From: Myxococcus dinghuensis
Lineage (GTDB): Bacteria; Myxococcota; Myxococcia; Myxococcales; Myxococcaceae
Direction: 5' to 3'
Assembly (NCBI RefSeq): GCF_024198235.1
Contig: NZ_JAKCFB010000042.1
Span: 1-64,000, forward strand
Length of the DNA: 64,000 nt
The notes under the pieces were generated by a model. The model did not search any database, was not told the DNA's origin, and worked only from the letters and a program-made list of their open reading frames with translations. Positions 46,174 through 63,202 of the stretch are shown here, piece after piece (position 1 is the stretch's first letter; each line of letters starts with the position of its first letter). Position numbers and translations under genes: made by a program.

Positions 46174-48033
46174 ATGGAGAAGCATTCGTCCGCCAGCCTC
46201 CGGTTGCCGCTCCCCGAGGAAGGGCAGGGCACGGGGCTGGACCTGCTGGCCGAGGCCCGCCGGGCGCGCCAGGGGGCGGAGCTGGCCAGCGCTCGGATGC
46301 GCAGCCTCCAGTCGCTCACGCTGGCGCTGTCCGGAGCCCTGACACCGGAGGACGTGGCCCGGGCCGTGGTGGTGGAGGCGGCGCGCACGATGGAGGCCCA
46401 CATCGGCGTCCTGTACCTGCTCGACGCGGCGGGCACCTGGCTGGAGCTGATGCACGCGGTGCGCTGTCCTCCGGAGGTGGAGGCCCTGGTGCGCCGCCTC
46501 CCGCTGGAGGCGAACCTGCCGGTGGCGGAGGCGGTGCGGACGCGCGCGCCGCTGTGGCTGGAGAGCTATGAGCGGATGACGGAGCGCTTCCCGCCCGCCT
46601 CCATCCTGACGCGCCCGGCGCACGGGAACATGTCGCTGGCGTGCCTGCCGCTGCACGCGCGGGGGCGGACGGTGGGGGCGCTGGGCTTCACGTGGGAGCG
46701 CTCGCGCGACTTCGACACGGAGGAGCGGGCCTTCATGGACATGATGGCGCAGCAGGCCAGCATGGCCCTGGAGCGCGCGCGGCTCCTGTCCGCCGAGCGG
46801 CGGCAGGTGGAGCGCACGGAGCTGCTCCAGCGGGCCACCGCGATGCTCGCCACGTCGCTGGACCTGGGCCCCACCCTGCGCGGCGTGGCGCTGGGGCTCG
46901 TGCCCACGCTGGGCGACTTCTGCATCATCGACGTGATGGGGCCGGACCGGGAGGTGCGCCGCACCTTCCACGCCTCCACGCCCGAGTGCGCCGCGCTGCT
47001 CGCCGCCAGCCGGTGGCAACCCTCCGAGCGCCCCGGCACGCAGGTGTGCGCGCTCGCCAGCGGGCGGCCCCAGTTCCATCCCCAGGTGAACGCCGCGTGG
47101 GTGGAGGGCACCGCGTGTGGCCCGGAGCAGCTCACGCTGCTGCGCGCGCTGGCGCCCTGCTCCTGGCTGTCCGTGCCCCTGGAGACGCCGGAGGGGCTGC
47201 TCGGCGCGCTGACGCTGGGACACTCCCTCTCCGGGCAGCACCACACGCCCGAGGACCTCGCGCTCGCCACGGAGCTGGCGCGCCGCGCCAGCGCGGCCGT
47301 GCAGAACGCGCACCTGTTCCACCAGACCCAGCAGGCGCTCCAACTGCGCGACGAGTTCCTCGCCATCGCCAGCCACGAGCTGAACACGCCGCTGACCGCC
47401 CTGAAGCTGCAACTGTCCCGGCTGCGGCGCATGTCCTCGGACGTGGACATGCAGGAGCGCACCCTGTCCGCCGTGCAGCAGGTGGACCGGCTGGGCCGGC
47501 TGGTGCGCGAGCTGTTGGAGGTGGCCAACCTGTCCGAGGGCCGCCTGCACCTCGCGCCGGAGCCCATGGACCTGGTGGGGGTCTGCCGCGACGTGCTGGA
47601 GCGCTTCGCCGACGAGCAGTCCCGCGCGGGCACCACCGTCTACCTGCACGCCTCCGACGCGGTGATGGGCCGGTGGGACCACTCCCGGGTGGACGGCATG
47701 GTGACGCACCTGGTGTCCAACGCCCTCAAGTACGGCCAGGGGCGGCCGGTGGACGTGGAGGTGCGCGGCATCCCCGGAGACCTGGCGCGGCTGGTGGTGC
47801 GGGACCGGGGCATCGGCATCCCTCCGGAGCAGTTGGCCCACCTCTTCCAGCGCTTCGGCCGGGCGGTCCCCCTGCGCCACTACGGCGGCTTCGGGCTGGG
47901 GCTGTGGTTCTCCCGCCAGGTGGTGGAGGCCCACGGCGGCCACATCCACCTGGAGAGCGCGCCGGGCCAGGGCACCACCGTCACCGTGGAGCTGCCGCGC
48001 ACGCCCGAGTCCCCCGACGACGCCTACCCCTGA
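46174..48033 (+). CDS. Cytosolic histidine kinase with two GAF domains
   Basis: A 619-residue kinase without transmembrane segments. GAF 1 is at about 45-200 (LTLALSGALTPEDVARAVVVEA, MDMMAQQASMALERARL) and GAF 2 at about 215-385 (MLATSLDLGPTLRGVALGLVP). The HisKA His401 is in LAIASHELNTPL, and HATPase has SNALKYGQG, DRGIGIPP and GFGLGLWFS. GAF domains sense small molecules or redox state. It has no receiver and no adjacent regulator. A similar GAF kinase lies at 50256-51884, so they might be paired, though domain order differs. Confidence 0.9.
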   Translation: MEKHSSASLRLPLPEEGQGTGLDLLAEARRARQGAELASARMRSLQSLTLALSGALTPEDVARAVVVEAARTMEAHIGVLYLLDAAGTWLELMHAVRCPPEVEALVRRLPLEANLPVAEAVRTRAPLWLESYERMTERFPPASILTRPAHGNMSLACLPLHARGRTVGALGFTWERSRDFDTEERAFMDMMAQQASMALERARLLSAERRQVERTELLQRATAMLATSLDLGPTLRGVALGLVPTLGDFCIIDVMGPDREVRRTFHASTPECAALLAASRWQPSERPGTQVCALASGRPQFHPQVNAAWVEGTACGPEQLTLLRALAPCSWLSVPLETPEGLLGALTLGHSLSGQHHTPEDLALATELARRASAAVQNAHLFHQTQQALQLRDEFLAIASHELNTPLTALKLQLSRLRRMSSDVDMQERTLSAVQQVDRLGRLVRELLEVANLSEGRLHLAPEPMDLVGVCRDVLERFADEQSRAGTTVYLHASDAVMGRWDHSRVDGMVTHLVSNALKYGQGRPVDVEVRGIPGDLARLVVRDRGIGIPPEQLAHLFQRFGRAVPLRHYGGFGLGLWFSRQVVEAHGGHIHLESAPGQGTTVTVELPRTPESPDDAYP

Positions 48034-50255: not shown

Positions 50256-51884
50256 CTACGACTGGAAGGGCCGCGCGTCGAGCGGGAGCTCCAGCGCGAA
50301 CGTCGTCCCGTGTCGCGCGTCGCTCTCGACGGTGACCCGTCCCCCGTGGGCCTGGGCGCACCCCCAGACCAGCGTCAGCCCCAGGCCCCAGCCCCTGGCC
50401 GGCCCCGCCTCCGCGGAGCGCGTCCGGTTGAAGGGTTTGAAGATGGCCTCCTGGTCGGCGACGGCGATCATCTTCCCTTCGTTGTGGACCGCGGCCCTCG
50501 CGCCGGACTCCGTCCGCGCCACCGTGACGGTGATGGGGGTGTTGGCGGCCCCGTACTTCACCGCGTTGCTCGCGAGGTTCCAGAGCGCGCGGCGCAGCTC
50601 CTCGGCGCTCCAGATGCCCCGGACCTCCGGCTGCGCGTGGAGGATGAAGCGCTCGCCGTGCAGGGCGCGCATCTCCTCGACGACCTCCAGGGCGACCCCA
50701 CCCAGGTCACACAGGTCGAGCCGCAACGGGAGCCGCTCGCCCGCCCGGATGCGGTTCGCGTCGAGCAGGTTGCGGATCATCTGGTCGGCCCGCTCGATGC
50801 TGTGGTCGATCTTCAGCGCCAGGTCCCGCCGTTCGTCGAGCTTCGCGGGATTCCGGCTGAGCATGTACGCGCTCACCTTCGCCGCGGACAAGGGACCGCG
50901 GAGGTCATGGGCCAGCACGGACACGAACCGCTCACGCAGGTCCCGCTCCGCGTGCAGCGCGCCGACCTGCTGTTGCAGGTCCGCATGCAGCTTCGCGTTG
51001 TCCAGATGGACCGTCAGGCGCTCGCCCAGCGACACGAGCCGCCGCCGCTCGCCGGGAGAGAACTCCCGAGGCGCGGCGCTGCCGACGTACATGACCCCCG
51101 CCAGCGCGTGGCGCGTGTTCAGACGCACGCCGAGCAGGGAGCGGATGCCGTCCCGTTGGAGCGCCTGGGCCTCCTCGCTTCCAGGGTGTGCGTCGAGGTG
51201 GATGGTCACCGCGTCCACCTGTGGAGGCGCGCGCCCCACCGTCGGAGCGAGGGGCTGGATGGCCGACATGAAGCGGGGCCAGGGACCTTCCACCACGCCC
51301 ACGGAGGCCATCATGACGCGCTCGGGAGTCGCGGGCTCGTACAGGAGCAGGGCCGCGCACCGGGCCCCCATGGACTCCTGCACCAGCGCGAGGACCTCCT
51401 TCAGCCGGTCCTTGAGCGCGACGGAGTCCACCTCGAGGGCCTCGCTCGCCACCTCCTGGATGAGCCGGAGATAGCGCTTCTCCGTCCGCTCATCCTCCAG
51501 GAGCCGCCCGAGGAAGACCTCCATCGCCGCCGCCGACATCGCGTGCAGCTCGGAGAAGAGGCGCTCGACCTCCAGCGCCTCGGGCGCTTGCCGACGCGGC
51601 TCCGCGGTCCACCTGCGGACGATGCAGCGCCCCAGGATGCCGAGCTCCTCGACACTCTGGGCCAGGTGGAACCCGGGACGGAGCTGTGTCGTCAGGGCGA
51701 TGACGAAGCGTGACCGTCGGGCAGCGGGGGTCCCCGGCGAGGAGAGGGCCTCCAGGCAGGCCGGGATGACGTCGAGGAGTTCGGGCGCGGCCAGCCCTCG
51801 CGCCGTGGCCGCGAGCGTCGCCTCGTCACTCCAGCACTGGAGGAGTTCATTCCGATGACCGTGGATGACCTCCGTGACGCTCAC
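50256..51884 (-). CDS. Histidine kinase with RsbRD-like and GAF sensor domains
   Basis: A 542-residue cytosolic kinase. The N-terminal about 140 residues resemble the RsbRD N-terminal helical domain (LLQCWSDEATLAA, IVRRWTAEP). A GAF domain follows at about 155-300. The HisKA His326 is in VSVLAHDLRGPL, and HATPase has ASNAVKYGAAN, then NEGKMI and a GWGLGLTLV box. The N-box and G-box are present, but the D-box DxGxG is replaced by NEGKM, so ATP binding may be altered. Ends at 50256, start ATG 51884. Confidence 0.87.
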   Translation of the reverse strand: MSVTEVIHGHRNELLQCWSDEATLAATARGLAAPELLDVIPACLEALSSPGTPAARRSRFVIALTTQLRPGFHLAQSVEELGILGRCIVRRWTAEPRRQAPEALEVERLFSELHAMSAAAMEVFLGRLLEDERTEKRYLRLIQEVASEALEVDSVALKDRLKEVLALVQESMGARCAALLLYEPATPERVMMASVGVVEGPWPRFMSAIQPLAPTVGRAPPQVDAVTIHLDAHPGSEEAQALQRDGIRSLLGVRLNTRHALAGVMYVGSAAPREFSPGERRRLVSLGERLTVHLDNAKLHADLQQQVGALHAERDLRERFVSVLAHDLRGPLSAAKVSAYMLSRNPAKLDERRDLALKIDHSIERADQMIRNLLDANRIRAGERLPLRLDLCDLGGVALEVVEEMRALHGERFILHAQPEVRGIWSAEELRRALWNLASNAVKYGAANTPITVTVARTESGARAAVHNEGKMIAVADQEAIFKPFNRTRSAEAGPARGWGLGLTLVWGCAQAHGGRVTVESDARHGTTFALELPLDARPFQS

Positions 51885-52852: not shown

Positions 52853-53872
52853 TCAGGGAGGGCTCCCCATGGTGGAGCTCCGGAGCCGGGCCTTGAGCAC
52901 GTCCGCCTCGTCCGTGTCGCGCAGCCTCACGAGCGATTGCACGTAGTACGCGAGCGCCCAGAGGTTCTCCTCGGGGATGGCGCCCTTCCAGGTGGGCATG
53001 GCCGCGCCCCCCACGCCGGAGGCAATCACCCGGTAGAGGTCCTCGCGCTGGCGCTCCGCCGTGTACGGTGTGCCGTCGACCCGCTCGCCCTCCGGCCACA
53101 CCGTGCGCAGCTCGTGGAAGAGGAAGTCCGGCGGGAGCACCTTCTGCGTACGCGTGGGCTCGCCCTTCGCGTCCAGCTCCACGGGGTGGTCGGACTCGCG
53201 GGCCTGCGCGGTGTACGGGTCCAGCTTGGAGAGGTCCACCTTGCGGCCCAGGGACGTCCCCAGCAGCGCGGCCAGCTCGGCGCGCGGCAGGTACGCGACA
53301 TGGCAGCCCGAGCAGCCCGCGTTCCCCTTCCCCGCGACGTGATACGCGACCCTGCCGCGCTCCAGGGCCTCCGCCTCGCGGCCCTTCCACGGGTCCGGCG
53401 ACACGGGCAGCGGCGGTCCGGGTGGCTCCTGCGTCCAGCGGGGGCTGAAGGTCTTCAGGTACTGCAGCACCGCGTCCTGGTCCGCGTCCGGGACGTCCCA
53501 GGCGAACATCGGCGTGCCGTGCAGGCCACGGCGCAGCGTGCGCTTCAACGCCTCGTCCGTGGGTAGCTCGCCCACCGCGACGTCTCCGAACTTGAAGAGG
53601 GCCAGCCGGAAGTTGCGCGGCACCGGCCGCATGCCGCGACCCGCGGGCCCCTGCCCGTCCCCGTTCTCGCCGTGGCACGAGGCGCAGTAGTACGTGTACA
53701 CCGAGTGCCCGCGCGACAGCGTCTCCGCCGGGACGACCCGCCCGTCCGCGAGCTTCAGCGGCTCGAACGTGGGACTGGAGCGCGAGCGACAACCCGCCAG
53801 CGCGAGCACCGCGACGAGCCCCAGCGCCCATCGGCCCGACGACCCGGACATCCGCGCGCCGCGAGAGTTCAT
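52853..53872 (-). CDS. Dihaem cytochrome c lipoprotein of the oxidase operon
   Basis: A 339-residue protein with signal peptide and lipobox LALAGC (Cys28), and two haem-c motifs: CASCH (Cys63, Cys66, His67) and CSGCH (Cys187, Cys190, His191). Met residues such as in GMRPVPRNF and PMFAWDV, and in AMPTWKG, are possible sixth ligands. It is the last gene of the cytochrome oxidase operon and overlaps the subunit III stop by ATGA, so it is the likely electron donor to subunit II. Another ATG is seven codons inside. Confidence 0.92.
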   Translation of the reverse strand: MNSRGARMSGSSGRWALGLVAVLALAGCRSRSSPTFEPLKLADGRVVPAETLSRGHSVYTYYCASCHGENGDGQGPAGRGMRPVPRNFRLALFKFGDVAVGELPTDEALKRTLRRGLHGTPMFAWDVPDADQDAVLQYLKTFSPRWTQEPPGPPLPVSPDPWKGREAEALERGRVAYHVAGKGNAGCSGCHVAYLPRAELAALLGTSLGRKVDLSKLDPYTAQARESDHPVELDAKGEPTRTQKVLPPDFLFHELRTVWPEGERVDGTPYTAERQREDLYRVIASGVGGAAMPTWKGAIPEENLWALAYYVQSLVRLRDTDEADVLKARLRSSTMGSPP

Positions 53873-54480
53873 GGGAGGTACACCGCCGCGAAGAGGAACA
53901 GCCACATCCCGGACACGAAGCGCCAACCGAGGACGTGGCGCCGCAGCGAGGCTCTCACATCCGCGCCCCGCAGGTGTCGGACGGCGACGAGGAAGAAGCC
54001 GAACATCACCCCGACGACATGCAGCGCGTGCAGGGCGGTGAGGCCGTAGAAGGCGGACGCGGGCACGCCGCCCTCGGGGATGCGCAGGTGCTCGTTCCAC
54101 CAGGCCAGGTGCGTCCACGTCGCCTGGAGCGCGAGGAAGACGAGCCCCAGCCCCAGCGCGACCCACGGCGTGAAGGGCGTGGCGGACGGCTCGCGGAGGT
54201 CGCGGCGCACCGCGAGCGGCAGCAGGCCATTGCCCACGAGCAGCGCCAGCCCCGTGCCTCCCATCGCCCAGCGGGAGATGGGCAGCTCCGGCCACGGCGC
54301 GCGCATCCGGAACCAACCCACCGCGAAGACGAGCGACACGAAGAACATCGCCCAGGCCGACCATCCGAGCACCGTGCCGAGCCAGGCCGTGCCCTCGTCC
54401 TGACGGGACGCGCGGGAGGACGGAGGAGGTGTCGAGGAGGATGGCTCCGGCGGCATCGCGTGCATGGAATCCGTGCTCAT
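53869..54480 (-). CDS. coxC: Cytochrome c oxidase subunit III
   Basis: A 203-residue protein with five predicted membrane helices after a Ser/Pro-rich N-terminus. Family features are the middle helix pair and the late helices ALHALHVVGVMFGFFLVAV and WRFVSGMWLFLFAAVYLP, which match the HxxHVxxG and W...WLxxF patterns of subunit III. It is short for the family (usually about 260), lacking the first two helices, as in the five-helix type. It sits between subunit I (28-base gap) and the cytochrome c gene. Confidence 0.88.
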   Translation of the reverse strand: MSTDSMHAMPPEPSSSTPPPSSRASRQDEGTAWLGTVLGWSAWAMFFVSLVFAVGWFRMRAPWPELPISRWAMGGTGLALLVGNGLLPLAVRRDLREPSATPFTPWVALGLGLVFLALQATWTHLAWWNEHLRIPEGGVPASAFYGLTALHALHVVGVMFGFFLVAVRHLRGADVRASLRRHVLGWRFVSGMWLFLFAAVYLP

Positions 54481-54508: not shown

Positions 54509-56242
54509 TCACGTCACGACCCCCAGCGCGGGGGGCTCGGATGCCGAGGCCGACGCGGGCTCACCCGGCAGCGCCTCCGCCTGTCCCAACCAATCGCGCC
54601 CCAGCCTCTCGAGCGACTCGGGCTGCGACAGCGCATGCGGCCCGCGCAGCACCACGGGGACGTGCGGGAAGTTGTCCTCGGGCGGAGGGCTCGGCGCGCA
54701 GGTCCACTCCAGGGTGCCCACGCTCCAGGGGTTCGGCCCGGCCGCGCGCCCACGCCGCAGCGTCCACACCAGGTTCACCACGAACAGCACCTGCACCGCG
54801 CCCAGCAGGAACGCACACGCCGTCGTCCACTGGTTCAGCGGAAGCAGGTGCCGCAGGAACGTGTACTGGTACGGGTCGTAGAGGCGGCGCAGTTGTCCCG
54901 CGTAGCCCGCCGCGAGCTGTCCGCCGAACACGCCGAGGAACAACACCGCGCTGACCAGGACGTGTGCCTTCGCGAGGCCCTCGTGCAACGCGCGGCCGAA
55001 CATCTTCGGGAACCAGAAGTAGAGGCCCGCGAAGACACCGAGGAAGCTCGCGGCGCCCATCGTCAGGTGGAAGTGGCCCACCACCCACAGCGTCCCGTGC
55101 AACGGCACGTCGGTGGCCACCGCGCCCAACGCGAGCCCGGTGATGCCGCCCAGGCCGAACACGACCATCGTCGTCAACGCCGCGAGCATCGGCGACGTGA
55201 GCCGCACGCTCCCCCGCCACAACGTCATCAACCAGTTGAGGAACATCACCTCCGCCGGCAGCGAGATGAGCAGCGTCAACACCATGAACGTGCGCCCGAG
55301 CACCGGCGACATGCCGCTGGTGAAGAGGTGATGCGCGTAGACGAGCCCGCTCAGCGCGGACACCGCGCCCATGGCGCCCGCCGTCAGCCGATAGCCATGC
55401 GCGGGCTTCCGACTGAAGAAGGCCACGAAGTCCCCCACCATGCCCCAGGCCGGGAGGATGAGGATGTAGACCTCCGGGTGGCCGAACAGCCAGAACAGGT
55501 GCTGGTACACCAGCGGGTCCCCGCCTCCCCCCACCGCCGCCGCGCCCGCCACGAAGAACTGCGTGCCGAGCAACCGGTCCATCAACACCATCACCGTGGC
55601 CGCCGCGAGCACCGGCACGAACAACACGTTGAGCACCGAGGCGTAGAACAGGCCCCACACCGTCAGCGGCAGCCGTCCCCACGTCATCCCCGGCGCCCGG
55701 CACCGCACCACCGTGACGACGAAGTTGAGGCCGTACAGGAACGCCGACACGCCCGCGCACAGCACCGCCACCGTCACCAGCGTCTGCCCCAGGCCCGGCG
55801 TGAAGACCGACGTCGACAAGGGCGGGTACGCCGTCCATCCCGCGCTCGCCGGCCCGAGCCGCAGTCCGAACGAGGCCAGCACCAGCACCCCGCCCAGCGC
55901 GTAGACCCAGTAGCCCACGGATGACAGCCGGGGAAAGGCCAGCCCCCTCGCGCCGATGGCCAGGGGCAACACGAAGTGCCCCAGCGCGCCGAACAACAGC
56001 GGCGTCACCGCGAAGAAGATCATCACCAGCCCGTGCATGGTGAACACCGCCGTGTACGTGGGCGGGGTCAACGCGCCTCGTGACTCGGGGAGGGCCCACG
56101 CGAGCCCCGGCACCGGCTGCCCGGGGAAGGCCCACTGCCAACGGATGAGCAGCGCCAGCAACCCTCCGAACAACAGGAAGCCGAGCCCGCTCCACAGGTA
56201 GCGCCGCGCCACCGCCTTGTGGTCGGTCGCGAAGAGACTCAT
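54509..56242 (-). CDS. coxA: Haem-copper oxidase subunit I with altered proton channels
   Basis: A 577-residue, 12-helix oxidase core. The metal ligands are all present: His70 and His392 for the low-spin haem, His255 (in HPEVY with Tyr259), His304 and His305 for CuB, His390 for the active-site haem. The canonical proton paths are not. The D-channel Asp of GAPDMAFPR reads GARGLAFPR (Gly100), the nearby Asn of FGNY is His89, and the K-channel TGIK reads PAEVM (Met333). The Glu of HPEVY (Glu257) is kept. The rest of the fold is intact. Start ATG 56242 overlaps the subunit II stop (ATGA). Confidence 0.95.
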   Translation of the reverse strand: MSLFATDHKAVARRYLWSGLGFLLFGGLLALLIRWQWAFPGQPVPGLAWALPESRGALTPPTYTAVFTMHGLVMIFFAVTPLLFGALGHFVLPLAIGARGLAFPRLSSVGYWVYALGGVLVLASFGLRLGPASAGWTAYPPLSTSVFTPGLGQTLVTVAVLCAGVSAFLYGLNFVVTVVRCRAPGMTWGRLPLTVWGLFYASVLNVLFVPVLAAATVMVLMDRLLGTQFFVAGAAAVGGGGDPLVYQHLFWLFGHPEVYILILPAWGMVGDFVAFFSRKPAHGYRLTAGAMGAVSALSGLVYAHHLFTSGMSPVLGRTFMVLTLLISLPAEVMFLNWLMTLWRGSVRLTSPMLAALTTMVVFGLGGITGLALGAVATDVPLHGTLWVVGHFHLTMGAASFLGVFAGLYFWFPKMFGRALHEGLAKAHVLVSAVLFLGVFGGQLAAGYAGQLRRLYDPYQYTFLRHLLPLNQWTTACAFLLGAVQVLFVVNLVWTLRRGRAAGPNPWSVGTLEWTCAPSPPPEDNFPHVPVVLRGPHALSQPESLERLGRDWLGQAEALPGEPASASASEPPALGVVT

Positions 56243-57051
56243 GGCGCCTTCCACTCCCAACCCCAGTTCGCGGCGGTGTCGTCGGCGTCGTAGACGCGCT
56301 CCGCCTGCCGCCCCGCTTCCTGGAGCCACGTCGCATAGGACTCCGGCGACACGGCGCGCAGCACGCCGCGCATCCGGTAGTGGCTGGTGCCGCAGTGCTG
56401 ATAGCAGGCCACCTCCCAGTCGCCCTCACGCGCGGCCTGGAACCATGTCTGGTTCACGCGCCCCGGAATCGCGTCCAGCTTCACGCGGAAGTGCGGCAGC
56501 GAGAAGCCGTGCACCACGTCCGTGGAGACCACCTGCACCCAGACGGGCACTCCCGCGGGCACACGCAGGTCGTTCCACGTCACCACGTCGTCCGCCGTGC
56601 CGAAGCGCCCATCCGCGCCCGCGTACCGCGCCTCCCAGGACCACTGGTGCGCGTTGATTTCGATGCGCACCGTGCGCGGGTCCTTCGCGGGGACCTCGAG
56701 GTTCCACAGCACGTCGCGCAGGTAGCCCTCCGAGCCCACCAGCAGCGTCCCGTCCACGACGAGGAACACGCTCAACGCCAACCCCAGCACCCACGCACGG
56801 GAGCGTCGCGTGCCGCCGTCCGACGCCGCGCGCCGCGCCCCTCGGAAGCGCCACACCGCCACGGCCAGCCAGCCGAGCGCCACCAGCGCCAGCCCCGCCT
56901 CGAACCGGTGGCTCCAGCCCAGCAGCGCGTCGATGCGATGCCCGTGGGTGCTCGCATCCTCGGGGAGCGACAGCGTCCACGCTCGCGACGCGTCGCCGCG
57001 CGGACTCCCGGCGGGAGCCTCGACGACGGGCCGGGGCGAGGAGTCGCTCAT
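56239..57051 (-). CDS. coxB: Cytochrome c oxidase subunit II
   Basis: A 270-residue protein with two N-terminal transmembrane helices (GLALVALGWLAVAVW and WVLGLALSVFLVVDGTLLV) and a periplasmic cupredoxin domain. The CuA site is clear: His in DVVHGFSLP, then Cys216, Cys220, His224 and Met227 in CYQHCGTSHYRM. Position two after the first Cys is Gln rather than the usual Glu. It has no fused cytochrome c domain; that function is a separate gene at the end of the operon. Both ends overlap neighbours by ATGA. Confidence 0.94.
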   Translation of the reverse strand: MSDSSPRPVVEAPAGSPRGDASRAWTLSLPEDASTHGHRIDALLGWSHRFEAGLALVALGWLAVAVWRFRGARRAASDGGTRRSRAWVLGLALSVFLVVDGTLLVGSEGYLRDVLWNLEVPAKDPRTVRIEINAHQWSWEARYAGADGRFGTADDVVTWNDLRVPAGVPVWVQVVSTDVVHGFSLPHFRVKLDAIPGRVNQTWFQAAREGDWEVACYQHCGTSHYRMRGVLRAVSPESYATWLQEAGRQAERVYDADDTAANWGWEWKAP

Positions 57052-57248
57052 CGCTGCTCCTCGCGCGCGAGCCGCCGGACCGCCCACACGCCCATGCCCA
57101 CCACGAGCAAGGGCGAGAGCATCAGCCCCGCCACCAACAACACCGAGCGCACCGCGGACTCCGGCTCACGCAGCGCACAGGTCGCGCATGCCAGCGCGTC
57201 CACGGGGATGATGGACAGGAGCACCGCCCACCGCGACACGGTGAGCAT
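57048..57248 (-). CDS. Small membrane protein heading the oxidase operon
   Basis: A 66-residue protein with two hydrophobic stretches (SRWAVLLSIIPVDALACATCA and VRSVLLVAGLMLSPLLVVGMGVWAVRR) and a CxxC-like pair in ACATC. Its stop overlaps the start of subunit II. It could help assemble copper or be a small accessory subunit; both are guesses. The frame is open to 57656, but that part is formed by the repeats described separately, so I place the start at ATG 57248. Confidence 0.6.
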   Translation of the reverse strand: MLTVSRWAVLLSIIPVDALACATCALREPESAVRSVLLVAGLMLSPLLVVGMGVWAVRRLAREEQR

Positions 57249-57641: not shown

Positions 57642-57807
57642 CCCCCGGGCTAGCACGCGGCATGGTGCCCCTCAAGGCGTGGGCCTCCGCTGGGCCTGCC
57701 TGCCCTCGGGGCGACCCGCTGTCGCCTACAGCGCCTGAGTAGGCAGGTTGACCGTGCGCGCCCCGCCGCGCTTGTGCCCGTGCGGACCTTTCGTTAGTTC
57801 CGCCCCC

Positions 57808-58467
57808 ATGTCCGTCGAATCCCCGCTCGCGATTCCCCAGGCCCGCCTCACCCAGCGCCCCGGCTTCTGGGCCGGCATCGCCGTCGCCGCGCTGTGCATC
57901 ACCGCCGCCGCCGGGTTCAGCATGCTGCGTGGACGGAGCGAGCCGCTCCCCCAGCTCGGAGCGCTCCCGGACTTCACCTTCACCCGGCAGGACGGGAAGC
58001 CGTTCGGCAACGCCCAGCTCCGCGGTCACCCCTTCATCGCCAACTTCATCTTCACGCGCTGCCCCACCGTGTGCCCCGCCTTCACGCGGAAGATGGCCCA
58101 CGTGCAGCAGAGCACCGCGTCGCTCGGCGCCGACCTCCAGCTCGTGTCCTTCTCCGTCGACCCGAAGTACGACACGCCCGAGCGCCTCGCCGAGTACGGC
58201 CAGCTCCACGGCGCCGACTTCGCCCGCTGGAGCTTCCTCACCGGCGACTACGAGGTGCTCAAGGACACCATCGTCCAGGGCTTCAAGGTCAGCATGGGCC
58301 GAGAGGCCGGCGCCCCCGAGGACGACCTGCTCTCCATCTTCCACGGCACCCACTTCGTCCTCGTGGATGCTCACGGCCAGGTGCGCGGCTACTACGACAG
58401 CGCCGACAGCAGCTCCACCGACCGGCTCCTGAGCGACGTCCATCGCCTGGTCCGCGACGAGGGCTGA
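57808..58467 (+). CDS. SCO1/SenC-family copper chaperone for oxidase CuA
   Basis: A 219-residue membrane-anchored thioredoxin-fold protein. TM helix at about 20-37 (FWAGIAVAALCITAAAGF), copper-binding CPTVC (Cys85, Cys89) in FTRCPTVCP, and the third ligand His182 in GTHFVLVDAHG. SCO proteins deliver copper to the CuA site of subunit II. It is transcribed away from the oxidase operon across a shared regulatory gap, a common arrangement. ATG 57808 is chosen because the upstream frame is low-complexity. Confidence 0.92.
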   Translation: MSVESPLAIPQARLTQRPGFWAGIAVAALCITAAAGFSMLRGRSEPLPQLGALPDFTFTRQDGKPFGNAQLRGHPFIANFIFTRCPTVCPAFTRKMAHVQQSTASLGADLQLVSFSVDPKYDTPERLAEYGQLHGADFARWSFLTGDYEVLKDTIVQGFKVSMGREAGAPEDDLLSIFHGTHFVLVDAHGQVRGYYDSADSSSTDRLLSDVHRLVRDEG

Positions 58468-60201: not shown

Positions 60202-60741
60202 TCACACATTCCTCGCCCCACCATCCGAATCCAGCGCCGCCAGTGTGCGCTCATACGTCTCCAGGTCCGGCTGGGAGAAGAGGACCACTGTCACCTTCTC
60301 AAGAAGTGGCAGTCGCCCCAGGCCCGCACGGATTTCCCGCAGGGCGATGGCCGCGGCCCGGTCGATGGGGAAGCGGTAGATGCCGGTGGAGATGGAGGGG
60401 AAGGCGACGGAGCGGAAGCCCCTGGCCTCCACGAGCGCGAAGGCGCTCTGGTAGCAGCGCGCCAGCGTCGCGGCCTCGCCCCGACCACCGCCCTGCCAGA
60501 CGGGGCCCACGGTGTGGATGACGTGGCGCGCGGGCAGACGGTAGCCGCGGGTCAGCTTCGCCTGGCCCGGGTTGCAGCCTCCCAGCAGGCGGCACTCGGC
60601 CACCAGCTCCGGCCCCGCGGCGCGGTGGATGGCGCCATCCACGCCGCCGCCTCCGAGCAGCGAGGTGTTGGCGGCGTTGACGATGGCATCCGCGTCGACC
60701 CGGGTGATGTCTCCTCGGATGAGCGCCAGCTTCGTGTCCAT
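60202..60741 (-). CDS. Macrodomain protein (O-acetyl-ADP-ribose deacetylase-like)
   Basis: A 179-residue single macrodomain of the MacroD/YmdB type: [30 protein letters not shown] and [10 protein letters not shown] carry the ADP-ribose-binding signature, including the Asn-Ala-Asn-Thr segment and the GGGGVD loop. It would hydrolyse O-acetyl-ADP-ribose or remove ADP-ribose from proteins. ATG 60741. No ADP-ribosyltransferase is visible nearby. Confidence 0.92.
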
Positions 60742-60922
60742 GGACGGGCTCCTGACTGTGTCGCGGCGAGGTGGGCCGCGAGGGACGCCCTCGTTCGCCG
60801 GACGCTGACGGAGTCGAGGGACGCGACAGGGCACACCCCGCCCCACGGCGTCGATGCGCCCCGGGGCGTGTGGCGGTGGCGTCACGAGGCCCGGCGGTCG
60901 ACCCGGCCGGGCCCGGGCGACG

Positions 60923-61672: not shown

Positions 61673-63025
61673 TCACGCGGTGGGCACCACCATGACGGGC
61701 CGCCGGCAGCGCGCCACCAGCTCGCGGGCGATGGCGCCGTGCAGGTGGTCCGGCTCCCGGGGCCCCTCGCCGGAGGTGCCCACGCACACCAGGTCCACGC
61801 CCTCGCGCTCCGTGGCCTGGCAGATGGCCTGCGTCACGTCGTCGCCGGAGACACCCTCCACGCTCCACTGGAGCGCCTGGGCGCCCTCGTCGCGCGGCAC
61901 CAGCGACCACAGCCGTCGCAACATGGCGTCCCGTCCGTGGAGCGGCTCCGGCAGCACGCCGTAGTGGTCCGGGTAGCCCGGCTCGCCCATGCGCTTGCGG
62001 TGCACGTGCAGCAGGTGCACTCGGCCTCCGGGGCCCACCAGGGTGCGCGCCTGGGAGATGGCGCGCAGGCTGGCCTCGGAGAAGTCCACCGGGACCAGGA
62101 CGCTGCGCGGCGGCAGGGCGTGGCGCGGCGCGCGCATCGCCTCCGGCACGCACACCACCGCCTGCTCCGCGTGGCGCAGCACGCCCGCGGACACCGAGCC
62201 ATGCCACAGCCGCTTCACCATGCCGCGCGCGTGCATGCCCACCACCACCAGGTCCGCGCCGCGCTCCAGCGCCACGTGCAGCAGGTGGTCCGCGGGCCGG
62301 CCGAAGCCCGGCTCCAGCACCACCTCCACGCGCCCCTCGCCCAGGAGGTCCCCCACCCGCTCGCGCACCTCGCGCTGGAGCACCGTCGTCACCGCCGGGT
62401 CCAGCTTCTCCATGTCCCGCGCCGCCGGCTCCAGCACGTCTACGTGCACCGGCGTGTGGATGCCCAACCGCTCCCGCTCCTCCAGCGGCGAGCACACGTA
62501 GGTGGCCAGCACGTCGCACGCGCCCACCCGGCGCAGCTCGCGCAGGAACGTGACCGCGGCCTCGGTGGTGGCCGACAGCGGATCCACGCCCACCACCACC
62601 AGCAGGCGCCGGCGCCCGCGGACCCAGTCCACCAACGCCTCCGCGCGCCGCACCGACAGCACCGGGCCACACCCCGCCCGCGCCATCCGCTCCGGCAGCG
62701 TCGCGCGGCGCCAGGCCGACGTGCGCCACCCCTCCGCCTCCACCACCACCCAGCGGGAGTGGCGGCACTCCGCGTCCTCCAGCACGTCCTCCGCGAAGGA
62801 CTGCACCCGGCAGTGGATCCGCCCCTCGGGGAGCCCCAGGCGCTCGGCCACCTCCTCGAGGCGCTCCTGGTGCTCGTCGAGCGACACCGCGTCCGCCGGG
62901 CCGGCGTCGCCCTCCAGCACCCCGACGAGCAGCAAGGGCTCCCCCAGCTTCGTCGCCAGCGCCGCCGCGACCTCCGGGGCGCCCGGGCCTCTCTCGGACA
63001 GGTGGGTTGCACAGACGATGGCCAT
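61673..63025 (-). CDS. Protein with three tandem universal stress (Usp) domains
   Basis: A 450-residue protein of three Usp-fold units. Unit 1 starts MAIVCATHLSERGPGAPEVAA. Unit 2 starts LLVVVGVDPLSATTEAAV and ends with the nucleotide-binding pattern GMHARGMVKRLWHGSVSAGV. Unit 3 starts VLVPVDFSEASLRAISQA and ends RRPVMVVPTA. Only unit 2 has the clear G-2x-G-9x-G(S/T) ATP-binding signature, so the others are probably structural. Usp proteins act in stress and energy sensing. Single- and double-Usp proteins are common; three in one chain is less so. Confidence 0.88.
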   Translation of the reverse strand: MAIVCATHLSERGPGAPEVAAALATKLGEPLLLVGVLEGDAGPADAVSLDEHQERLEEVAERLGLPEGRIHCRVQSFAEDVLEDAECRHSRWVVVEAEGWRTSAWRRATLPERMARAGCGPVLSVRRAEALVDWVRGRRRLLVVVGVDPLSATTEAAVTFLRELRRVGACDVLATYVCSPLEERERLGIHTPVHVDVLEPAARDMEKLDPAVTTVLQREVRERVGDLLGEGRVEVVLEPGFGRPADHLLHVALERGADLVVVGMHARGMVKRLWHGSVSAGVLRHAEQAVVCVPEAMRAPRHALPPRSVLVPVDFSEASLRAISQARTLVGPGGRVHLLHVHRKRMGEPGYPDHYGVLPEPLHGRDAMLRRLWSLVPRDEGAQALQWSVEGVSGDDVTQAICQATEREGVDLVCVGTSGEGPREPDHLHGAIARELVARCRRPVMVVPTA

Positions 63026-63202
63026 GGCCGCCCTCCTCGGTGGGTGCAGGCGTTCCACACCCATAGGAAGAACAGATGGCCACGATGAGTGGCGGCCGGC
63101 GGCCCCGCTGGCATGCCCGCCTGCCCTGGAGGCCAGCGGGTCGCGGGGAGGACTCGCGCCCGGGGCGTGCGCGCGCGCCCGGACGGAGCGTGGGGACGCT
63201 CG

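Follow-up and report, generated by a model that had tools for sequence, protein, structure and literature searches.

The 64,000-nucleotide stretch of Myxococcus dinghuensis DNA analyzed here (assembly GCF_024198235.1, contig NZ_JAKCFB010000042.1, positions 1 to 64,000; hereafter the window) encodes a haem-copper oxidase subunit I (CoxI) from which the canonical residues of both proton channels, D and K, are missing, and comparison with about 200 relatives suggests that one of these proton routes has been rebuilt around a buried acid in the neighbouring subunit, CoxII. We favour, with a probability of roughly 0.55, a working A-lineage cytochrome c oxidase in which oxygen is reduced at an intact haem a3/CuB/Tyr site and protons arrive by a rebuilt K-type path. 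The informative partner residue lies in subunit II (56239-57051), outside the CoxI coordinates flagged in the first-pass annotation of the window. The features on which the argument depends are as follows, with CoxI codons counted from the start codon.

54509..56242, minus strand: CoxI, catalytic subunit I, 577 amino acids, 12 predicted transmembrane (TM) helices (open reading frame; PF00115, 411 bits; AlphaFold2 model)
55976..55978, minus strand: CoxI His89 codon, the D-channel Asn113 site
55943..55945, minus strand: CoxI Gly100 codon, the D-channel Asp124 site
55922..55924, minus strand: CoxI Ser107 codon, the D-channel Asn131 site
55466..55474, minus strand: CoxI Glu257-Val-Tyr259, with E278 and the cross-link Y280 kept
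55262..55264, minus strand: CoxI Ser327 codon (Paracoccus position 348), Ser/Thr in oxidases without the channel Lys, Ala/Gly in most that keep it
55253..55255, minus strand: CoxI Ala330 codon, the K-channel Thr351 site
55244..55246, minus strand: CoxI Met333 codon, the K-channel Lys354 site
56239..57051, minus strand: CoxII, the CuA subunit, 270 amino acids, its stop overlapping the CoxI start (ATGA) (PF00116; sequence; AlphaFold2 model)
56752..56754, minus strand: CoxII Asp100 codon, a carboxylate in the middle of the second TM helix (TM2; model helix 82-115) (invariant in 39/39; sequence; AlphaFold2 model)

Site numbers are those of Paracoccus denitrificans CoxI (the 1ar1 chain), to which the window protein was aligned by MAFFT, and the numbering was verified on 18 reference residues. 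The six His ligands of the low-spin haem, the high-spin haem and CuB (94, 276, 325, 326, 411 and 413) are retained as H70, H255, H304, H305, H390 and H392, as expected of the haem-copper oxygen reductase superfamily, and the HPEVY motif with Glu257 (E278) and the cross-link Tyr259 (Y280) is that of a type A (A1) active site; Y35 (Tyr15) and N199 (Asn173) are retained as well. The D-channel sites have changed from N113 to His89, D124 to Gly100, N131 to Ser107, S134 to Gly110 and S193 to Ala167, and the K-channel sites from S291 to Gly270, T351 to Ala330 and K354 to Met333. The first-pass annotation had described the metal ligands, the cross-linked Tyr and the Glu of HPEVY as kept and had named the replacements Gly100, His89, Met333 and Ala330, all of which the alignment confirmed; the changes at N131, S134, S193 and S291 are additional. 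HMMER alignments to solved oxidases agreed at the sites that they displayed, and the closest solved CoxI sequences were actinobacterial and Paracoccus aa3 oxidases, while the match to TIGR02891 scored 516 bits, under the cut-off of 670.75. AlphaFold2 was run on family alignments for CoxI and CoxII separately, and the CoxI model showed twelve long helices at a mean predicted local distance difference test score (pLDDT) of 86.6, with Ser327, Ala330 and Met333 in helix VIII (313-341).

In terms of the channel residues listed in Table 2 of PMC3084760, the protein has neither the type A (A1) D-channel set (Asp124, Asn113, Asn131, Ser134) nor the K-channel set (Lys354, Thr351, Ser291, here M333, A330 and G270); type B does not fit Met, Ala and Gly at 354/351/291, and type C does not fit Y259 at the A position together with A330 and G270. 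By that channel-based definition the window enzyme is outside types A, B and C; its sequence is of the A lineage, a placement supported by sequence and by trees that contain A-type rows only. Sequence error at the channel codons is very unlikely, because 38 rows of the window's clade are also without Asp124 (Gly, Gln or Arg instead) and because nonsynonymous divergence (dN, 0.061-0.164) was below synonymous divergence (dS, 0.395-0.529) against the 7 relatives compared. Judged from these rates, CoxI is under purifying selection.

The glutamate at the entrance of the K-channel (Rhodobacter E101) is missing in CoxII of the window and its clade, which carry a lone Asp inside TM2. To see how this acid is distributed, A-type oxidases were sampled mainly in three phyla, named as in the sequence records: Acidobacteria (the phylum of our locus L113) and Planctomycetota (that of L107), each with 119 genomes of which 82 gave matches, and the window's own phylum, with 61 and 195 genomes; 75 regions were fetched by place. 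From 288 rows we dropped 18 without CoxII, 14 without the anchor motif and 38 with identical CoxI, leaving 218 different CoxI/CoxII pairs, 143 without K354 (K-less) and 75 with it (Lys-keepers). The 18 rows without CoxII have 13 Ile, 3 Lys, 1 Phe and 1 Met at site 354, and four of the 13 Ile rows were second copies at contig ends, set aside by hand.

The results showed that, with the last motif taken as the anchor, an Asp or Glu lies inside TM2 of subunit II in 142 of the 143 K-less rows in comparison to 3 of the 75 Lys-keepers, and in those three (L225, L273 and L278) the acid is at or past the far end of the hydrophobic core. Two earlier rules gave different tables: strict hydrophobic flanks, which sometimes picked TM1, found the acid in 77 K-less rows and not in 70, and in 6 Lys rows and not in 70 (223 rows), and a run-length rule with the first motif as anchor gave 124 with and 23 without for K-less and 16 with and 63 without for Lys (226 rows). 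A cruder rule, any Asp or Glu 30-36 residues before the motif, flagged 129/143 K-less rows and 5/75 keepers; 13 of its 14 misses have an Asp at 37-39. Because four of the five flagged keepers (L114, L219, L184 and L190) look mis-anchored, an anchor-free listing was also made of the last long hydrophobic stretch in each of the 75 keepers, and by eye no acid was found inside the TM2 hydrophobic core in 74 of the 75; for L176 the listing had picked the wrong stretch, and its TM2, seen separately, has no acid. On these sequence counts, the cruder rule and the anchor-free keeper listing still separate K-less enzymes from keepers. A Glu directly before the TM2 core was present in 73/75 keepers, and a looser entrance-Glu motif was matched by 69/75 keepers in comparison to 33/143 K-less rows.

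The substitute is Asp in the window's clade, in L030, L186, L194 and L262, and in L111; it is Glu in the group of L027, L192 and L240 (whose member L243 has Asp), in the group of L187 and L265, and in L252 and L241. A hand count puts the offset along TM2 between the entrance-Glu site and this acid at about 11-15 residues. Asp100 of the window is invariant in 39 of 39 aligned sequences and falls near the middle of TM2 (82-115) in the CoxII model (mean pLDDT 88.4), whose fold matches are subunits II of mitochondrial and Paracoccus type A1 oxidases (best row 8ugh_4B, Z 19.1; 7ate_B, Z 19.0, root-mean-square deviation 2.2 over 213 residues; 1ar1_B, Z 18.8). A Glu beside the lost Lys, CoxI Glu331, was considered as a substitute and rejected as not conserved (of 110 rows, 40 have Glu and 40 have Ala at this place, and some copies, from Corallococcus and elsewhere, have Gln).

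A second change accompanies the loss of the Lys within CoxI itself. Position 348 (Ser327 in the window), which lies in helix VIII three residues before T351, one turn from that old Thr, is Ala in 61, Gly in 12 and Ser in 2 of the keepers, and Ser in 129, Thr in 13 and Gly in 1 of the K-less rows, so that a Ser/Thr is present in 142/143 K-less rows vs 2/75 keepers. Every CoxI column was scored for mutual information with the K354 state, each row being weighted according to similarity; after site 354 itself (0.997), position 348 ranked highest at 0.816, followed by the next column at 0.731. In nine hand-picked comparisons of a keeper with a K-less relative, not all of them independent, 348 gains Ser/Thr in eight, and L252 gains Gly. 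The window, with M333, D100 and S327, has the three sequence marks of the group proposed here, the K-less, subunit-II-acid oxidases.

The losses of the Lys were separate events. A main tree was built from 130 of the 218 rows, near-identical and short rows being left out (L015 stands for the window), and a more careful one from 40 of the 130, hand-picked (16 K-less, 24 Lys). The 130-row tree requires at least 7 changes of the K354 state, and in six independent pairs differing at K354 the acid follows in a mean of 5.9 (200 pairings), with no change in the opposite direction; the paired sign test gave a median p of 0.031, the least attainable with six pairs (range 0.031-0.125). The 40-row tree gives the same picture (5.9/6 pairs, seven changes), and on it a single clade for all 16 K-less rows was rejected (log-likelihood lower by 315.9; approximately unbiased test, p 7e-56). 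L111 sits among the Lys-keepers L110, L113 and L172, and L252 beside L112 and L219; where exactly L241 and L271 belong among the keepers is less certain.

Taken together, both sets of channel residues are lost in the window, and a subunit-II carboxylate and a Ser/Thr at 348 were gained along with separate losses of the Lys in the sequences compared. In the mechanism that we propose, protons would enter from the cytoplasmic side along TM2 of subunit II, be held by the buried CoxII Asp100, and pass by Ser327 to the cross-linked Tyr259. The subunit-II carboxylate and the helix VIII hydroxyl would have replaced the K-channel first, after which the lineage dropped its D-channel; one proton input would then remain, and pumping would probably be weaker. 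The first of these steps draws its support from the covariation, while the geometry, in which Asp100 would face the old K-channel and carry protons, the transfer itself and the degree of pumping are what we infer from it. Of the options raised in the first-pass annotation, a new proton path is therefore favoured on the K-channel side, where the buried carboxylate and Ser/Thr348 track the loss of the Lys. The annotation had also allowed that conserved Asp or Lys substitutes elsewhere would speak against its claim; such a substitute does exist, but because it lies in another subunit the objection is only half borne out.

Several observations weigh against this interpretation. It took three attempts, all on one data set, to arrive at the acid rule, and the first two tables were weaker. 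The K-less L271 fails the rule, its Glu being next to a Lys; the K-less L252 has Gly at 348; and L263, L265-L268 and L270 carry an entrance-like Glu besides the buried one. The 13 K-less CoxI with Ile354 stand outside the acid count, having no CoxII in the sequence examined. Because the two subunits were modelled apart, the contact from Asp100 through Ser327 to Tyr259 is a putative one, as are the oxidase activity and the proton stoichiometry, and the covariation could reflect packing or assembly.

This last point leads to the alternative that, although unlikely, survives best: the subunit-II acid and Ser348 would be a structural adjustment to the missing Lys, and protons would arrive through water-filled old channels or from the periplasm in a slow, non-pumping oxidase. 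It gains from the fact that the role given to Asp100 derives from sequence and not from geometry, from Table A4 of PMC8756737, where the predicted proton channels of cNOR and qNOR number 0, and from the free variation of site 124 in the clade (Gly, Gln, Arg). The acid, however, is in mid-helix, invariant in 39/39 and at about the same place of the helix in separate lineages, none of which a packing fix need produce.

The history of the D-channel was followed in a set of 110 rows (the window and 109 loci, some near-identical, with L001, L002, L004 and Paracoccus kept apart). Site 354 is Met in 35, Leu in 31, Phe in 31, Ile in 6, Lys in 5 and Val in 2, and site 124 is Asp in 80, Gly in 22, Gln in 5, Arg in 2 and a gap in 1, so the loss of the Lys is wide and that of the Asp narrow. 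In a 103-row tree K354 changes at least 3 times, and D124 changes once, in a group that joins L152 to the closer relatives of the window, every one of them from the window's family. From these sequences, K354 is missing across a clade spanning several phyla, and the loss of Asp124 is nested inside that clade, later and within the window's own family. Intermediates survive: L042 (Hyalangium), L141 and L046 carry N113 and S134 with Gly124 (L042 and L046 apparently recur as L140 and L132), and L136 has His113 and Ser134. On comparing the 38 D-less with the 68 D-intact K-less rows by inspection, no buried acid was newly conserved in CoxI as a D-channel replacement; Ser107, His282 and Arg317 are among the residues that did become conserved.

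Some loci within this history deserve mention in their own right. L243 (G314, phylum of L113) is an independent double loss, with Thr113, Gln124, Ser131 and Leu354 and a TM2 Asp. L242 and L250 keep the Lys but have Arg or Ser at D124, with Asn113 and Asn131 intact, so loss of the Asp is not confined to K-less enzymes. L252, which is K-less and keeps D124, has HPVVY, that is Val for Glu at 278; L199 and L200 have Tyr at the K-channel Lys site; and the Neomarinimicrobiota loci L071, L072, L097 and L099 carry two adjacent, different K-less A-type oxidases. Faster decay of CoxIII after loss of the Asp was considered and dropped, as D-less and D-intact comparisons showed no clear difference (CoxIII identity 0.438 and 0.385, respectively, at CoxI identity 0.70-0.77; 0.455 and 0.500 at 0.77-0.85; 0.601 and 0.566 at 0.85-0.93).

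Another explanation, which we consider improbable, is that a D-type path persists through other residues (His89, Ser107, water) to Glu257 and that the enzyme still pumps. Glu257 and Asn173 are indeed retained, and His occupies site 113 in 27/110 rows; yet Gly, Gln or Arg stands in place of the Asp at site 124, the clade shows variation at sites 113 and 134, and CoxI has gained no buried acid. Since the D-channel was lost without such a gain, reduced pumping is the outcome that we infer for the rebuilt K-type path: the enzyme would be active with a single input route and, by analogy with the one-channel B and C families, would probably pump less than 1 H+ per electron. In the account of PMC12901375, K-pathway mutants block haem a3 reduction, and the B and C families work without an active D-pathway at about 0.5 H+ per electron.

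The first-pass annotation had also raised a different substrate, and the corresponding view, that nitric oxide (NO) or another acceptor is the true one, is very improbable. According to PMC8756737, numerous putative eNOR genes carry a cytochrome c oxidase label, but the cross-link Tyr259 and HPEVY are intact here and a CuA subunit, a cytochrome c and SCO are encoded alongside; because Tyr259 is kept and the NO reductases described in PMC8756737 carry Gln, Asn, Asp or Glu at that place, a different substrate is not supported, and identity as an NO reductase was ruled out. That the gene is a decaying or non-catalytic paralogue is scarcely credible: it is accessory, present in 14/27 genus genomes, and in L138, L139, L142 and L143 neither CoxIII nor cytochrome c was found next to CoxI, but dN is well below dS in 7/7 comparisons, all metal ligands are kept and the gene order is conserved in most relatives, and a pseudogene is ruled out by relatives that share the changes and by dN < dS.

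Among known systems, the window enzyme resembles type A1 (the aa3 oxidases of Paracoccus, Rhodobacter and bovine mitochondria) in its haem and CuB ligands, its HPEVY with the cross-link Tyr, its CuA subunit II and the modelled fold of that subunit, and differs from it in lacking the D-channel residues, the K-channel residues and the subunit-II entrance Glu and in having the TM2 Asp and Ser348. With types B (ba3) and C (cbb3) it would share a single proton input other than D, the 0.5 H+ per electron being theirs (PMC12901375), whereas at the sites where the window has Met333, Ala330 and Gly270 the alternative K-channel is built from Thr/Ser/Tyr in B or Ser/Tyr in C (PMC3084760 Table 2). The CoxMNOP alternative oxidase of rhizobia and Cupriavidus is likewise an additional A-type (ccaa3) oxidase operon (PMC5492768), but the plasmid-borne L115, L116, L119 and L121, taken as CoxMNOP from organism, gene order or similarity (two are without annotation), keep D124, N113, N131, T351 and K354; the idea that rhizobial CoxN lacks both channels proved wrong on these four copies. 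The eNOR, sNOR and CuANOR enzymes belong to the same superfamily, and eNOR, sNOR and gNOR are two-subunit enzymes with a cupredoxin subunit (PMC8756737); unlike the window, which keeps Tyr259, eNOR, sNOR and CuANOR have Gln or Asn at the active-site Tyr.

Loss of the K-channel in family A is already in print: its variants and losses are discussed on an archaeal COX1 tree by Degli Esposti et al. 2021 (PMC8239418, sections 11 and 12), and those two sections make no mention of a subunit-II replacement or of the loss of both channels. Oxygen reductases with 0-2 predicted channels are listed in Table A4 of PMC8756737. The literature searched yielded no account of a carboxylate in subunit II taking the place of the Lys, although most subscription papers and all supplements were outside that search and absence from print is thus not shown.

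The surroundings of the gene are those of a complete oxidase operon, and the II-I-III-cytochrome c order with a divergent SCO gene, as first annotated, was recovered from open reading frames and Pfam matches.

53869..54480, minus strand: CoxIII, short form, 203 amino acids (PF00510, 23.0 bits, just below the 23.8 cut-off)
52853..53881, minus strand: cytochrome c with two CxxCH motifs and a lipobox-like LAGC (PF13442, PF00034; motifs read from the sequence)
57748..58467, plus strand: SCO1/SenC copper chaperone, divergent from the operon (PF02630, 100 bits)

The two-CxxCH cytochrome c is the probable electron donor. The CuA motif of CoxII (C216-C220) reads C-Y-Q-H-C, with Gln instead of the Glu that usually lies between the cysteines, a replacement shared by many K-less relatives. 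A small membrane-like open reading frame with a CATC motif (57048-57248, minus strand) has its stop overlapping the CoxII start codon, and 57051-57239 gave no Pfam match. Absence of CoxIII and cytochrome c beside CoxI in L138, L139, L142 and L143, a D-less subgroup with an unrelated open reading frame next, is not tied to loss of the Asp, because the D-intact K-less L051, L054 and L061 also show neither nearby. Two GAF-domain histidine kinases lie near the operon (46174-48030, plus strand; 50259-51884, minus strand), and beyond the SCO gene are a macro-domain protein (60205-60885, minus strand) and a universal stress protein matched over two stretches (61676-63064, minus strand).

The genome is about 10.4 Mb, its nearest named relatives are Myxococcus and Pyxidicoccus species, and the 14 genus genomes with an orthologue at 89% identity or more include the window's own. 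It holds three further oxidase genes: L001 and L002 are A-type CoxI with D124, K354 and T351 and with no TM2 acid in subunit II, and L004 looks like a cbb3 subunit, judged by its motif.

In A-type oxidases the residues of the K- and D-channels are regarded as nearly indispensable, since point mutations at them block steps of catalysis (PMC12901375). Natural enzymes without both channels, and with a repeated substitute in another subunit, offer a way to tell the channel parts required for chemistry from those required for pumping, and sister enzymes with and without the Lys are ready-made comparisons. They are also a warning against defining oxidase types by the channel residues of subunit I alone. 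At about even odds, there would be a further A-type proton-input design, invented several times, in which a TM2 carboxylate of subunit II and a helix VIII Ser/Thr replace the Lys, the D-channel then being discarded in the window's family and separately in the L243 lineage; if so, these would be A-type oxidases running on the subunit-II path alone.
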